A DNA stretch of 9,094 bases, from NCBI GenBank assembly GCA_946478995.1, contig CAMLDK010000033.1, forward strand, positions 1 through 9,094. Direction: 5' to 3'. The notes under the pieces were generated by a model. That model was not told the origin of the DNA and made no database searches. It saw only the letters and a list, made by a program, of their open reading frames with translations. How positions within the stretch are numbered: the stretch's first letter is position 1; each line of letters begins with the position of its first letter. Positions 3,727 through 7,570 of the stretch are shown here, one piece after another. A program made the position numbers and the translations under genes. The DNA is from an uncultured Candidatus Saccharibacteria bacterium (GTDB lineage Bacteria > Patescibacteria > Saccharimonadia > Saccharimonadales > 2-12-FULL-41-12).

Positions 3727-3991
3727 GAAGCATTTTAATATCAAGGTTTCCGGTAAAGTCCAGGGCGTATGGTTTCGGCGAAGTACGTTTCAAAAGGCAA
3801 ATGAACTGGGTGTTTTTGGCACGGTTAAGAACATGCCCGATGGCAGCGTGGAGATACGAGCGGAGGGCGAGGAAACAGCTTTACAGAAACTCCTTGACTG
3901 GTGCAGAAACGGTCCGGAGCATGCCGCTGTTGAAGATGTAACTTACAGCGAAGAGGGATTTCAAGGCTATAAGGACTTCTCTATTTCTTAA
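3725..3991 (+). CDS. acyP: Acylphosphatase
   Basis: This 88-residue cytoplasmic enzyme is of normal length for the family. It hydrolyses the carboxyl-phosphate bond of acyl phosphates such as acetyl-phosphate, carbamoyl-phosphate or 1,3-bisphosphoglycerate. Signature 1 is VSGKVQGVWFRR (8-19), where R18 matches the phosphate-binding catalytic Arg. Signature 2 is GTVKNMPDGSVEI (32-44), where N36 matches the catalytic Asn that positions water. The family's WC..GP..A.V block follows at about 69-79. There is no Shine-Dalgarno; the start follows the previous stop by 9 bp and lies in a small hairpin, so translation is probably coupled to the surface-protein gene. The 3' end overlaps the convergent MFS gene by 11 bp. 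The function is well supported, although the physiological substrate cannot be told from sequence. Confidence 0.96.
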   Translation: MKHFNIKVSGKVQGVWFRRSTFQKANELGVFGTVKNMPDGSVEIRAEGEETALQKLLDWCRNGPEHAAVEDVTYSEEGFQGYKDFSIS

Positions 3992-5264
3992 ATTCTTCGG
4001 CAACATCCGCTTCAGAATCTTCGGCAGATTTTTTAATAGGGTCGGACTCGGCTTTCTCTTTCCGTGCCAGCAGCATGAACGGCACGGCAAATGCGCTTAT
4101 AACGCCGCTGACCATATAGGAGGCTGAATAGCTGTAAAAATCCGCTACTTTACCAAGCGCCGGCTGGAAGATAACGCCGCCGCTGGAACCGATCATCGAA
4201 TCGAAAGACAGAACGGTCGCCCGCTGCTTGGACGGAATTACGCCGTTAAGATAAGTCTGGCGTATCGGCATCTCAGCGGCAAAAATCAGCGCCCAAAGTA
4301 CTATCAAAATTATCGCCACCCAGAATATATTGACGAAGCCGAAGCTGAATAACAGAAGCGCACTCGAAACCGTACCCAGGGTTAAGATAGAAGTCCGGCG
4401 CTTGAAGAGCGTAACGAACTTTGGTACGAACAATCCGCCGAGTATCTGCGCGCCGGCTATTATCGCCGCCACCAAGCCGGCTATGCTATACGCATCAGGG
4501 TCGCCGTAAAGGTTTAGAAGATACGGCTGCATGGCATAAAAAGCATAGAACCCTACGCCGGACGTAAACGGCGCGGCCAGCATTATCCAGCGGACTTTGC
4601 GGTTCTTGATACCGTATTCGACGGATTTGTCAAAAATCCTTTTTATTTCCTTGATCGGCTGTTTGGATTTTTCCGGAGTGAAGCCGATATCGCGCATCAC
4701 AAAAAACGCGAATAGGAAGCTCAGGCCAAGTATCGCCGCACGGAGTATATACGGAACGCCCAAATTGCTTGCCTGGGCGATCAGTCCGCCGGCTACCGAA
4801 CCGCCCAGCATAGCTATACCGCCGGCGATCTGGCCCTTGGCAAAAACATTTTCCAAGTTACCCTTGAACTTTGTAAAGTGCATGGCATCAACCAGCCAGG
4901 CTTCAACCGCTCCGGAAAAGAAAGTAAAGCCCAGCCCGAGCAGCACGGAGCTGGCTATCCATCCCCAAAAAGGCCCGTTTATTTCCCACATTAATAAATA
5001 CAGAGCTGTCGACGCGCTCAAGGTTATGGTCCCCAGCAGGAAAGAAGTCCGCCGCCCGCGGCTGTCGGCGACTATGCCTGTCGGAACTTCAAACAACAGC
5101 TGTCCGGCCGTGAAAAAAGCATTTGCCGCGAACGCCTGGGTATTTGAAAGCCCGGCGTCAAGCAGGAAAAGGGTATTGATTCCCCATATCAAGGAAGCGG
5201 CCAGCGTATTAAGCAGAGTCAGCGTCAAATATATACGTTGTATGCGTCTGGCCTCGCTATTCAT
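3981..5264 (-). CDS. MFS transporter, probable drug or metabolite exporter
   Basis: This 427-residue inner-membrane protein has the 12-helix pattern of the major facilitator superfamily. After TM2 comes EVPTGIVADSRGRR (59-72), the classic motif A (G-x-x-x-D-x-x-G-R-R) in the loop between TM2 and TM3. A longer charged cytoplasmic loop at about 191-225 separates the two six-helix halves. Another conserved-looking stretch, RQTYLNGVIPSKQRATVLSF (335-354), is typical of the exporter-like subgroup related to putative tetracycline/multidrug MFS proteins; the substrate cannot be assigned. The C-terminus is a charged tail. A TACAAT -10 sits 6 nt before the ATG (complement of 5262-5264), implying a leaderless message. 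The gene is divergent from metK and convergent with acyP, and no terminator separates it from acyP. Confidence 0.93.
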   Translation of the reverse strand: MNSEARRIQRIYLTLTLLNTLAASLIWGINTLFLLDAGLSNTQAFAANAFFTAGQLLFEVPTGIVADSRGRRTSFLLGTITLSASTALYLLMWEINGPFWGWIASSVLLGLGFTFFSGAVEAWLVDAMHFTKFKGNLENVFAKGQIAGGIAMLGGSVAGGLIAQASNLGVPYILRAAILGLSFLFAFFVMRDIGFTPEKSKQPIKEIKRIFDKSVEYGIKNRKVRWIMLAAPFTSGVGFYAFYAMQPYLLNLYGDPDAYSIAGLVAAIIAGAQILGGLFVPKFVTLFKRRTSILTLGTVSSALLLFSFGFVNIFWVAIILIVLWALIFAAEMPIRQTYLNGVIPSKQRATVLSFDSMIGSSGGVIFQPALGKVADFYSYSASYMVSGVISAFAVPFMLLARKEKAESDPIKKSAEDSEADVAEEFKK

Positions 5265-5270
5265 ATTCGA

Positions 5271-5279
5271 ATTGTATCA
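5271..5279 (-). promoter_or_regulatory. Extended -10 promoter of the MFS gene
   Basis: On the minus strand, TG-A-TACAAT (5279 down to 5271) is an extended -10 element that matches TATAAT at five of six positions. It ends 6 nt before the ATG at 5264, so transcription would start at or very near the start codon. No -35 of quality is seen, which is common with an extended -10. Confidence 0.5.
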
Positions 5280-5306
5280 AATAATATCTTCCCAGGCTCA
5301 ATCTTA

Positions 5307-5335
5307 TTGCCAGGCTGCTTCTTACATGCTAAATT
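5307..5335 (+). promoter_or_regulatory. Promoter of the metK leader
   Basis: TTGCCA (5307-5312) and TAAATT (5330-5335) are separated by 17 nt, and a TG one base before the -10 makes it an extended element. Transcription would start near 5342, about 16 nt before the riboswitch aptamer. This is one of the better-formed promoters in the window. Confidence 0.6.
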
Positions 5336-5357
5336 AAAGACCGTTAACAATTAGATA

Positions 5358-5462
5358 GATATAAAGAGCGCGGGGAGAGATCTAGCTCAACGAACCGCCA
5401 GCAACCCGGATAATGCCGGGTGCTCCGCCTAGACCGCTTTATTAGTCAAGCGGGAAGATATC
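5358..5462 (+). promoter_or_regulatory. SAM-I (S-box) riboswitch aptamer upstream of metK
   Basis: All parts of the S-box fold can be drawn. P1 is GATAT (5358-5362) with ATATC (5458-5462). P2 is GCGG (5370-5373) with CCGC (5395-5398), plus an inner GAG/CTC stem (5375-5377 with 5386-5388) and a kink-turn-like AACGAA side (5389-5394). P3 starts with the hallmark GCAACC (5401-5406) and returns as GGTGC (5419-5423), enclosing CCCGG/CCGGG (5405-5409 with 5416-5420). P4 is CCGCTT (5434-5439) with AAGCGG (5448-5453). The P2 loop TCTA (5381-5384) can pair with TAGA (5430-5433), the conserved pseudoknot. The aptamer is 105 nt, typical of the class, and its placement before a SAM synthetase gene gives direct product feedback. 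A SAM-I/IV variant is the main alternative subclass. Confidence 0.92.
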
Positions 5463-5474
5463 ACTTTTGCGATC

Positions 5475-5511
5475 ATCCTTTCCGCTAAGTTCATGGCAGA
5501 AAGGATTTTTT
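5475..5511 (+). terminator. Riboswitch expression platform: terminator hairpin that also hides the metK Shine-Dalgarno
   Basis: ATCCTTTC (5475-5482) pairs perfectly with GAAAGGAT (5499-5506), with a possible GC/GC extension inside, followed directly by a T-run (5506-5511). That is an intrinsic terminator ending one base before the metK ATG. The 3' arm is also the ribosome-binding site: AGAAAGGA (5498-5505) is complementary to the 3' tail of 16S rRNA and lies 7 nt from the ATG. The alternative fold would pair GGAAGAT (5453-5459) with 5475-5483 (two bases bulged), opening P1 and freeing the Shine-Dalgarno. The expected outcome is expression off when SAM is bound. Confidence 0.8.
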
Positions 5512-5512
5512 A

Positions 5513-6622
5513 ATGCCCAAGGACCACAAGTTATTCACCAGCGAATCCGTCTGTGCCGGCCATCCGGACAAGATATGCGATATCATCAGCGATGCTATTT
5601 TGGATGAAGTCCTCCGTCAGGACCGGTTTTCCAGGACGGCGATCGAGACGGTCGTAGGCGAGAATCAGATCAGTCTTTTCGGCGAAATCCATACCAAGGC
5701 CAAGCTTGACTGTGAAGCCCTGGTCAGGAGTAAGATCGCTGAGCTTGGCTACAACAGACCTGAATGGAAGTTTTCCGACAAATCCAACTTTTCCAGTTTT
5801 CTTCATGAACAATCGCCGGAAATTTCAGCGGGCGTTGATCCGGGCGGCGCCGGCGACCAGGGCATAATGTTCGGCTATGCCGTAAAGGACTCGAAAGAGC
5901 TAATGCCCATGCCCATAGTCGTCGCCCACGCTTTGACGAAGAGAATAGACCGGTGCAGGAAAGACAAAATTCTTGAATGGCTACGGCCGGATGGCAAGGC
6001 CCAGGTGACCATTAAATATGTGGCGAATAAACCGGTTGCCGCGGAAAAAACAGTTCTGGCTTTAGCCCACAGCGAAGAGATCGGTCCTGATGAAGTCTAT
6101 AAGCAAGCCATAGAACATATCATCAAGCCGGTTATAGAAAGCTTCGGATTGGATCTTAATAAGTCAGGCATAGTTGTGAACGGCACCGGCGTCTGGCATA
6201 TACCCGGGCCGGAATCTGATGCCGGGCTAACCGGACGCAAAATCGTGGTTGACACATACGGCGGATATGCCAGGGTCGGCGGCGGGGCTCTATCCGGCAA
6301 AGATCCGACCAAAGTCGACCGGTCCGGGGCGTACGCTGCCCGCTATATAGCCAAGAACGTCGTGGCAAAAGGCATGGCAGATGAATGCGAAGTGGCCTTG
6401 GCTTATGTCATAGGCCAGCCGAGGCCGCTGATGCAGACCATCGAAACTTTCGGTTCGGCGCTAGCGGACGATAAAGAAATAGAAGAGTTCGCCGCCGGTT
6501 TGCTCGATACGTCAGTCAGGGGAATCATCGACGGTCTGGACCTGAGAAGACCAATATATTCCCGGACATCTGTCTACGGCCACTTCGGCAAACCGGAATT
6601 ACCGTGGGAAAAAGTTGGCTAG
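5513..6622 (+). CDS. metK: S-adenosylmethionine synthetase (methionine adenosyltransferase)
   Basis: The enzyme makes SAM from ATP and methionine in the cytoplasm, releasing phosphate and diphosphate. It has 369 residues, slightly shorter than the usual 380-400. Aligning by eye to E. coli MetK: FTSESVCAGHPDK carries His17 and Asp19 (Mg/ATP), Glu45 and Glu58 (K+ and methionine sites), GAGDQGIMFGYA carries Gln116, RPDGKAQV carries the ATP-binding DGK (160-162), and DAGLTGRKIVVDTYGG carries Asp236, Arg242 and Lys243. GGGALSGKDPTKVDRSGAYAARY carries Lys263 and Lys267. An oddity is TGVWHIPGP (225-233) in place of the usual TGRFVIGGP, so the ATP-contacting Arg is Val227; the His of ARHGGG is also Val. 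The protein ends with the family's PWEKV block. Translation starts at the ATG 7 nt after a strong Shine-Dalgarno that is controlled by the upstream SAM riboswitch. Confidence 0.97.
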   Translation: MPKDHKLFTSESVCAGHPDKICDIISDAILDEVLRQDRFSRTAIETVVGENQISLFGEIHTKAKLDCEALVRSKIAELGYNRPEWKFSDKSNFSSFLHEQSPEISAGVDPGGAGDQGIMFGYAVKDSKELMPMPIVVAHALTKRIDRCRKDKILEWLRPDGKAQVTIKYVANKPVAAEKTVLALAHSEEIGPDEVYKQAIEHIIKPVIESFGLDLNKSGIVVNGTGVWHIPGPESDAGLTGRKIVVDTYGGYARVGGGALSGKDPTKVDRSGAYAARYIAKNVVAKGMADECEVALAYVIGQPRPLMQTIETFGSALADDKEIEEFAAGLLDTSVRGIIDGLDLRRPIYSRTSVYGHFGKPELPWEKVG

Positions 6623-6643: not shown

Positions 6644-7570
6644 ATGATCAATGTTTACCACAGCACTGCTCGTGATTCCAAATTAAGGTCGGCCAAAATC
6701 GCCAAGGCCGGCAGCTGGGTTCATGCCGTCGAGCCGACCGAAGCCGAGCTGGAAAAGCTAGCCAAGGAATTCAACTTGGACAAAGACATCCTTATGGATG
6801 CGACCGATCCGCACGAGGCTCCCCGTGTGGAAGAAAGCGAAGGCGCTACGTACGTTTTCTGCCGTTACTGCCGCCCGGCCGACCCTGATATTCCGACCGA
6901 GCCTATGCTTATAGTCTCTACCGACAAAAACATCATCACCGTGATGCGCAGCAATGACGACACGCTACAAAACATAATAAACGGCCACAAATATATAGCC
7001 ACCACACAGAAAACCAAGACATTTCTTCAAATCTTAGAGCAAATCAACCATTCCTACCGCAGCCAGCTGCTTCAGATCTCCAAGCAAATTCTGCGTTTCC
7101 GCTCCCAGATGCGCCGTACAGAAGCCAGCAATATAGACCTGATAAAATTCATTGAACTCGAGGAAGACCTGAATGAATTCTTATCAGCTCTGCAGCCGCA
7201 GGGAATTGTTCTAAACGCCCTTGAGTCCGGTAAATATATGAAAATGTATGAGGATGACAGGGAGATGGCCGACGATATTCTGCTAAATACCAACGAGCTG
7301 ATCGAGCAGTGTAAATCGCGGCTTAGGACTGTTGTGAATATCCGCCAGGCTTATGATGTGATAGCCACCAACAACCTTAACAAAATATTCAGGCGCCTAA
7401 CCGCCATAGCCATCTTTTTGGCCATACCGACGGTAATCGGCGGCTTATGGGGGATGAATGTGCCCTTGCCTTATCAGGAAAGTAAGTACGCGTTTTTCAT
7501 TATCCTGATCCTTATTGCCGCCACGGTATATTTAGCTAACCGGTTCTTTACTTATAAAAAATGGCTCTAA
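6644..7570 (+). CDS. corA: CorA-family magnesium/divalent cation channel
   Basis: The protein has 308 residues, close to the usual CorA length of about 310-320. An N-terminal alpha/beta cytoplasmic domain (about 1-120) is followed by a long charged helical region (about 125-250, the funnel/stalk). Two C-terminal membrane helices follow: TM1 at about 252-270, ending in the diagnostic GMN (270-272) within GGLWGMNVPLP, and TM2 at about 281-301. A short basic tail, TYKKWL, ends the protein, as in other CorA proteins. It would form a homopentamer that lets Mg2+ (or Co2+/Ni2+) into the cell. It lies 21 bp downstream of metK; MetK needs Mg2+, which makes the pairing sensible, but a functional link is inference. 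A -10 box close to the ATG suggests a separate leaderless start. Confidence 0.95.
   Translation: MINVYHSTARDSKLRSAKIAKAGSWVHAVEPTEAELEKLAKEFNLDKDILMDATDPHEAPRVEESEGATYVFCRYCRPADPDIPTEPMLIVSTDKNIITVMRSNDDTLQNIINGHKYIATTQKTKTFLQILEQINHSYRSQLLQISKQILRFRSQMRRTEASNIDLIKFIELEEDLNEFLSALQPQGIVLNALESGKYMKMYEDDREMADDILLNTNELIEQCKSRLRTVVNIRQAYDVIATNNLNKIFRRLTAIAIFLAIPTVIGGLWGMNVPLPYQESKYAFFIILILIAATVYLANRFFTYKKWL

Follow-up and report, generated by a model that had tools for sequence, protein, structure and literature searches.

Saccharibacteria are host-dependent bacteria with reduced genomes, and the question raised by this locus is whether one of them controls metK by a SAM-responsive switch and, if so, how that switch acts on the gene. 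An initial annotation of the window (the whole 9,094-nucleotide stretch of DNA analysed here), made from the sequence alone, proposed a SAM-I riboswitch ahead of metK and raised the possibility of a CPR host. The putative leader lies in a 248-base gap between an MFS transporter gene (3981-5264, minus strand, divergent) and metK, directly ahead of a SAM/methionine gene as is expected of a SAM-I leader.

5513 to 6622, plus strand: metK, coding for an S-adenosylmethionine synthetase of 369 aa (Pfam S-AdoMet synthetase N, M, and C domains; relatives are named methionine adenosyltransferase, Candidatus Saccharimonadales).

The nearest organism-named MetK relative is from Candidatus Saccharimonadales (81% identity), and the top eight genome loci by MetK (66 to 68% identity) comprise seven titled Candidatus Saccharibacteria and one titled 'bacterium', which bears out the CPR host. 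The closest relatives of the window (81 to 90% MetK identity) were compared as proteins, and the leader DNA comparisons use more distant genomes. These metK loci were found in genome contigs with an alignment of 24 MetK sequences as query, a single-MetK scan having given no relative. A CorA-like Mg2+ transporter gene (6644-7570, same strand) begins 22 bases past the end of metK and may share its SAM switch.

The aptamer and its parts are as follows.

5356 to 5464, plus strand: SAM-I riboswitch aptamer (RF00162, 44.7 bits, E 8.7e-8; covariation among relatives).
5358 to 5362, plus strand: P1 5' strand, pairing with 5458-5462.
5381 to 5385, plus strand: P2-loop side of the pseudoknot, UCUAG, pairing with CUAGA at 5429-5433.
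5400 to 5424, plus strand: P3, with GCAACC at 5401-5406 and GGTGC at 5419-5423.
5434 to 5453, plus strand: P4 hairpin, 5434-5439 with 5448-5453.

The RF00162 (SAM) match spans the full model (1-108) and scores 44.7 bits against the Rfam gathering score of 44.4; nothing else from Rfam reaches E ≤ 1 in the window. Within the Rfam SAM clan the best match here is RF00162 and not SAM-IV or SAM-I/IV. The conserved SAM-I core (AAGAG, GCAACC, and GGTGC) is present in the RF00162 alignment, helices P1 to P4 form a four-helix junction, and the L2-J3/4 pseudoknot has five pairs. P1 is short, with five Watson-Crick pairs (5358-5362/5458-5462), and three further P1 pairs of the model are non-standard. The P1-P4 helices, the GCAACC/GGTGC strands, and the loop pseudoknot that the initial annotation had read by inspection are thus all in place, and the scan with SAM clan models that it had proposed puts RF00162 above the gathering score. 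Since the margin is only 0.3 bit, the relatives weigh more than the score in the case for SAM-I, and both a model match and conservation in relatives, either of which might have been missing, were found. A decaying riboswitch that has lost SAM binding would agree with so narrow a margin over the cut-off and with the several non-standard P1 pairs, but the core motifs and the pseudoknot are intact and relatives with metK score anywhere from 29 to 61.8 bits; we regard decay as very improbable.

The class and the phylum (taken as Saccharimonadia and Patescibacteria) were sampled around genome G005, whose locus L005 is titled Candidatus Saccharibacteria. RF00162 matches occur in 17 of 20 genomes chosen for metK, 154/294 genomes of the class, and 83/379 of the phylum, which rules out that the switch is rare in the group. 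In the class, metK was found in 178 of the 294 genomes; 149 genomes have both metK and the switch, 5 the switch only, 29 metK only, and 111 neither (odds ratio, 114). The annotation had implied that a feedback switch on metK would be unusual here, and this does not hold: 149/178 metK genomes of the class carry it, and the category of platform has already been described. Nor do all 29 metK-only genomes seem to lack a switch, as 5 of 7 leaders read by eye (L224-L230) show all or part of one: a whole switch in L225, L226, and L228, a switch with a long insertion in L229, and the 3' half only in L227. No switch was visible by eye in L224 and L230. Repeating the RF00162 search with laxer filters matched 1 of the 29 (G198, at two weak places). 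Either RF00162 misses divergent copies and those with long insertions, or the reading of L225-L229 as SAM-leader-like is too generous.

Other riboswitches were seen in passing. Two metK loci that are further removed, one titled Candidatus Levybacteria and one 'bacterium', have matches to SAM-I/IV (RF01725) just over the cut-off rather than to SAM-I (L030 2836-2954 and L039 2843-2953). L035, from a MAG titled 'bacterium', has an FMN riboswitch (98.1 bits) at 4125-4249, just 3' of a metK relative; in the available part of PMC4508563, the FMN riboswitch is given as not found in the Parcubacteria genomes of that study.

How the aptamer might act on metK depends on what lies between it and the start codon.

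5475 to 5482, plus strand: 5' arm of a terminator-like, sequestering hairpin, AUCCUUUC (folding; 95.2% of cells paired in 39 leaders).
5498 to 5505, plus strand: metK Shine-Dalgarno, AGAAAGGA (7 of 8 bases within the hairpin 3' arm, 5499-5506; 16S tail of relatives).
5506 to 5511, plus strand: T-run behind the hairpin, its first T also paired (sequence; recurs in relatives).

The hairpin consists of AUCCUUUC (5475-5482) paired with GAAAGGAU (5499-5506) over eight pairs, the T-run is followed by A5512 and then the ATG (5513-5515), and no space is left between hairpin and AUG. This agrees with the annotated 8-bp hairpin whose T-run ends one base before the ATG. Its 3' arm had also been equated with the Shine-Dalgarno, and here the overlap stands but the identity does not: the arm is GAAAGGAU, so that 7 of the 8 bases of AGAAAGGA are paired. 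Folded alone, the platform (5465-5515) reaches -14.1 kcal/mol, a moderate stem. A simple terminator scan, which admits loops of 3 to 8 bases only, gave none in 5200-5600; the loop within the eight-pair stem is 16 bases long and holds a small inner helix. The anti-Shine-Dalgarno was read from the 16S of relatives rather than from the window's own genome: 10 of 25 genomes match the 16S tail within 2 mismatches, all 10 ending in ACCTCCTTTCT, the last 8 bases of which are complementary to AGAAAGGA, and the other 15 of 25 have no match at ≤2 mismatches. The leader thus has a terminator-like hairpin near the frame, with the ribosome-binding site in its 3' side and a U-run, as in a dual transcription/translation platform.

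Conservation of this platform was assessed in 160 leaders (143 places among the RF00162 matches listed in the class, 16 loci, and the window), of which five duplicate aptamers were dropped to leave 155 distinct leaders; at least two listed places (G010 and G020) fall outside the 155. With start codons assigned by the MetK motif and the best Shine-Dalgarno match, 93 of the 155, the window included, start 36 to 76 nt past the aptamer and have the hairpin layout of the window, and 46 start 1 to 5 nt before the aptamer ends; of the remainder, 15 lack a MetK motif in the part that was read, and one has no start codon. The proposed merging of termination and Shine-Dalgarno sequestration in one hairpin therefore holds as a layout, and it is conserved in these 93 leaders. 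The matched Shine-Dalgarno is fully or all-but-one-base paired in the platform's own fold in 80/93 leaders. In fixed 50-nt stretches it is paired, with at most one base left free, in 64/86, with 7 of the 93 left out for want of a 5-base Shine-Dalgarno match, versus 381/1,720 with the upstream part shuffled. Pairs were counted on 92 hairpins (L086 was skipped, its start being probably misassigned), each in the sequence's own fold; GGA is followed by an A-U pair in 45 of them and by a C-G pair in 34.

Covariation, which the annotation had suggested looking for in metK leaders of related genomes, is evident in an alignment of 39 of the 50 ATCTAG leaders listed, the 11 whose arm differs from CCTTTC being left out. 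Changes on both sides are seen in 22 of the 41 pairs of the named structure (shuffled mean, 13.1; 0/500 shuffles reach 22), or in 88 cells versus a shuffled mean of 42.1, and sliding the partner by 1 to 3 columns lowers pairing from 87.3% to 38 to 47%. The hairpin is paired in 95.2% of cells, and five of its eight pairs change on both sides; corresponding values are 94.9% for P1, 99.0 and 100% for P2, 80.6% for P3, and 63.6% for P4, which is variable in length and poorly aligned. Four of the five pseudoknot pairs are invariant and the fifth forms in 5/39 leaders; this invariance is partly by choice, because the 39 were selected for ATCTAG, and outside this subset the pseudoknot reads, by eye, CTGG with CCAG. 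RNAalifold alone recovers P2, the P3 core, and the hairpin from the 39 leaders, and does not predict P1 and P4.

Two simpler readings of the hairpin have to be weighed. In the first, the switch is translational only: the hairpin acts on full-length mRNA by covering the Shine-Dalgarno, and the U-run serves as an unstructured spacer. The Shine-Dalgarno does sit in the hairpin; translational control seems at home in the class, because the 46 sister leaders initiate in the aptamer with no hairpin; and translation attenuation is the commonest mode outside Firmicutes according to the available part of Barrick and Breaker 2007 (PMC2258182). However, a T-run of at least four in the 12 nt ahead of the start is present in 88/93 hairpin leaders, compared with 0/46 hairpin-free leaders and 4/59 other ORFs (≥150 aa, from 30 loci, 22 titled Saccharibacteria; this set replaced a 9-ORF control). 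The T-run therefore goes together with the hairpin, as required for a terminator but not for a spacer, and a purely translational switch is unlikely. In the second, the switch works by termination only, and the Shine-Dalgarno falls in the hairpin merely from the terminator's nearness to the start, its covering having no effect of its own. The antiterminator/terminator layout described below and the lack of space before the AUG are as this reading would have them, but a leader that escaped termination would still hold the hairpin with no clear reason to open, and the Shine-Dalgarno complement is retained as the 5' arm in nearly all of the 92 hairpins counted; it is less probable again than a translational switch, although not as remote as decay.

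An antiterminator that competes with the hairpin, an element absent from the initial annotation, is predicted from the 3' side of the aptamer.

5449 to 5457, plus strand: predicted antiterminator 5' strand, AGCGGGAAG (P4 3' arm and J4/1; folding and co-evolution).
5478 to 5486, plus strand: predicted antiterminator 3' strand, CUUUCCGCU (folding).

In the modelled SAM-free state AGCGGGAAG can pair with CUUUCCGCU, and because this pairing uses part of P4 and part of the hairpin 5' arm, it excludes both. The energies, which are for secondary structure only and include neither ligand nor kinetics, favor the antiterminator in a transcript ending at 5494 (-42.2 versus -36.8 kcal/mol with P1 forced) and P1 plus the hairpin in the complete leader (-47.1 versus -43.1 kcal/mol with the antiterminator forced), and this modelled reversal fits a decision made during transcription. 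Folded without constraints, the complete leader is most stable (-48.1 kcal/mol) in a structure that keeps P3, P4, and the hairpin but lacks standard P1.

Co-evolution of the two strands was examined with a between-species swap, in which, for 92 leaders, the last 32 nt of each aptamer were paired both with the arm of the same leader and with those of the other leaders (1 of the 93 had no recognisable arm and was dropped). Own pairs average -12.48 kcal/mol and swaps -10.13, and a G+C-stratified permutation has a mean of -10.25 kcal/mol with 0/10,000 as low as the own value; control regions of the same aptamers gave no signal in the same test (P3, p = 0.19; P2, p = 0.78). Leader by leader, the own pairing beats at least half of the swaps in 68/92 and at least 95% of them in 22/92. 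The window's own pairing is stronger than about 97% of swaps, which is a further argument against a decaying riboswitch. The swap took the place of a plain arm-shuffle test, which 19/93 leaders pass at 5% and which is weak because nearly any ordering of a purine strand can pair with a pyrimidine strand.

The aptamer, the two mutually exclusive pairings, their conservation and covariation, and the U-run are all computed here, and we consider it likely that the leader is a SAM-I OFF switch providing feedback on metK through a dual platform; SAM binding, termination, and the translational block are inferred from them. With little SAM, AGCGGGAAG (5449-5457) would pair with CUUUCCGCU (5478-5486) once the latter is transcribed, and with the antiterminator formed the polymerase would continue and the Shine-Dalgarno would remain open. 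Bound SAM would hold P1 and P4 and so free the pyrimidine arm for GAAAGGAU (5499-5506), whereupon the hairpin and U-run would stop transcription just ahead of the AUG. On any transcripts that escaped, the Shine-Dalgarno would be covered by the hairpin.

The 46 leaders that start within the aptamer are organized differently. In 42 of them the AUG falls within the P1 3' strand, 5 nt before the aptamer end; 37/46 have AGAAAGGA 5 nt ahead of the AUG. AGAAAGGAAAGATATG is a typical aptamer end, in which the Shine-Dalgarno, as judged by eye, occupies the loop and 3' arm of a short P4. MetK thus starts within the SAM-I aptamer (e.g., L098, L100, and L112), and the coding sequence takes in the final bases of the sensor. 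Among the metK matches listed, many in the lower-scoring part cover only about positions 3 to 77 of the 99-position Pfam N-domain; their frames are about 320 to 400 codons long and make up a divergent branch of shorter MetK proteins in the class, the branch that holds the leaders with aptamer-internal starts as far as these were compared. Ribosome-binding sites in the 3' side of SAM-I P1 are noted in the available part of PMC2258182, and the arrangement of the 46 leaders is an extreme form of the direct translation attenuation described there.

Both layouts might follow from one feature. We tentatively propose, as a possibility somewhat short of an even chance, that in Saccharibacteria metK, together with a small methionine regulon, is under the standing control of SAM-I, which acts by mimicry: GGGAAGAU, the purine strand at the aptamer 3' side, and AGAAAGGAU, the Shine-Dalgarno, are near-copies that would compete for one pyrimidine arm, and this likeness would let the start site move from the hairpin into the aptamer. 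If so, the end of the sensor doubles as the start of the coding sequence, as in 46/155 leaders.

Some genomes seem to have a small SAM regulon, since methionine-type genes lie behind the same leader. Longer stretches were taken for 14 of the 15 leaders with no adjacent MetK motif and for four further places (18 in all), and 10 proteins from 9 of these stretches were scanned against Pfam. The matches are a homocysteine S-methyltransferase (L231), Cys/Met-metabolism PLP enzymes (L235, L239, and L242), a cobalamin-independent methionine synthase N-domain (L233), an aminoacyl-tRNA editing domain (L236), a ThiS-like protein (L246), and, below the cut-off, a 2OG-oxygenase (L240); the L234 protein and a second ORF of L246 have no Pfam match. 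By eye, L234, L241, L245, and L247 resemble L233, L243, L244, and L248 resemble L235, and L232 resembles L231, and in L237 and L238 a small ORF precedes metK. The homocysteine-methyltransferase-like genes of L231 and L232 (G112 and G127) have an in-frame AUU where others have the AUG after the U-run; ATG, GTG, and TTG were not seen nearby, and the AUU is a possible start codon. In L240 (G263:C20:53584-56500) the SAM leader is followed by the 2OG-oxygenase-like frame and then, by eye, by GTP cyclohydrolase I- and dihydropteroate synthase-like frames, a possible folate operon under SAM control.

Upstream of the leader are two further elements.

5307 to 5335, plus strand: promoter-like TTGCCA - 17 nt - TAAATT, with TG before the second hexamer (pattern scan).
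5343 to 5352, plus strand: conserved GTTAACAATT box before the leader (recurs ahead of relatives' leaders).

Promoter-like sites are expected by chance at a mean of 1.0 per shuffled region. The GTTAACAAT(T) box, with at most one mismatch, is found within 30 nt 5' of the aptamer in 70/155 leaders versus 12/1,550 shuffles, and five of the six exact copies of GTTAACAATT in L001-L060 (392,541 bases, both strands) are followed by a SAM leader. With up to two mismatches it is present in 97 leaders, and because in 62 of these it lies 6 to 8 nt past a TATAAT-like hexamer, the box may be the first transcribed bases. A test for pairing between the GTTAACAATT box and the platform was negative (own, -4.66; swapped, -5.03; p = 0.97; n = 66).

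The presence of the switch in most sampled metK genomes of the class suggests that these bacteria adjust their own SAM supply and that metK is not unregulated. It offers a lineage-wide, ligand-specific regulator for testing, and a native riboswitch would be a starting point for expression control in Patescibacteria, for which riboswitches are named as candidates in the available part of a 2024 PNAS review (PMC11665869). With both platforms within one class, the shift from hairpin to start-site-in-aptamer control is open to comparison. The open-licence literature, as far as available, yielded no report of a SAM switch or its platform in Saccharibacteria, and Rfam listings or subscription papers may well show it; the riboswitches in the available part of PMC10409787 are TPP riboswitches of Variovorax.

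The switch of the window is a known design, its aptamer being a SAM-I member and its platform a category described in 2007. With SAM-I (S-box; RF00162) it shares the full-length match, the core motifs, the L2-J3/4 pseudoknot, P1 to P4, and the position before metK, and it differs in its low score, in the CUAG/CUAG pseudoknot core of its subgroup, and in the leader-specific upstream box. The SAM-I riboswitch of the Xanthomonas campestris met operon is mainly translational according to the available part of PMC7270179 and belongs to another host and operon. The direct translation attenuation of PMC2258182 is shared, as an initiation site in the aptamer, by the 46/155 relatives but not by the window. 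The closest likeness is to the dual platform of PMC2258182, the available part of which describes terminators near the reading frame with the ribosome-binding site in the 3' side of the hairpin and proposes that these could attenuate transcription or, where that fails, translation. The window agrees with this with no difference of principle found, and what goes beyond that account, in the part available, is that the dual platform is the majority layout in one class (93/155 leaders).
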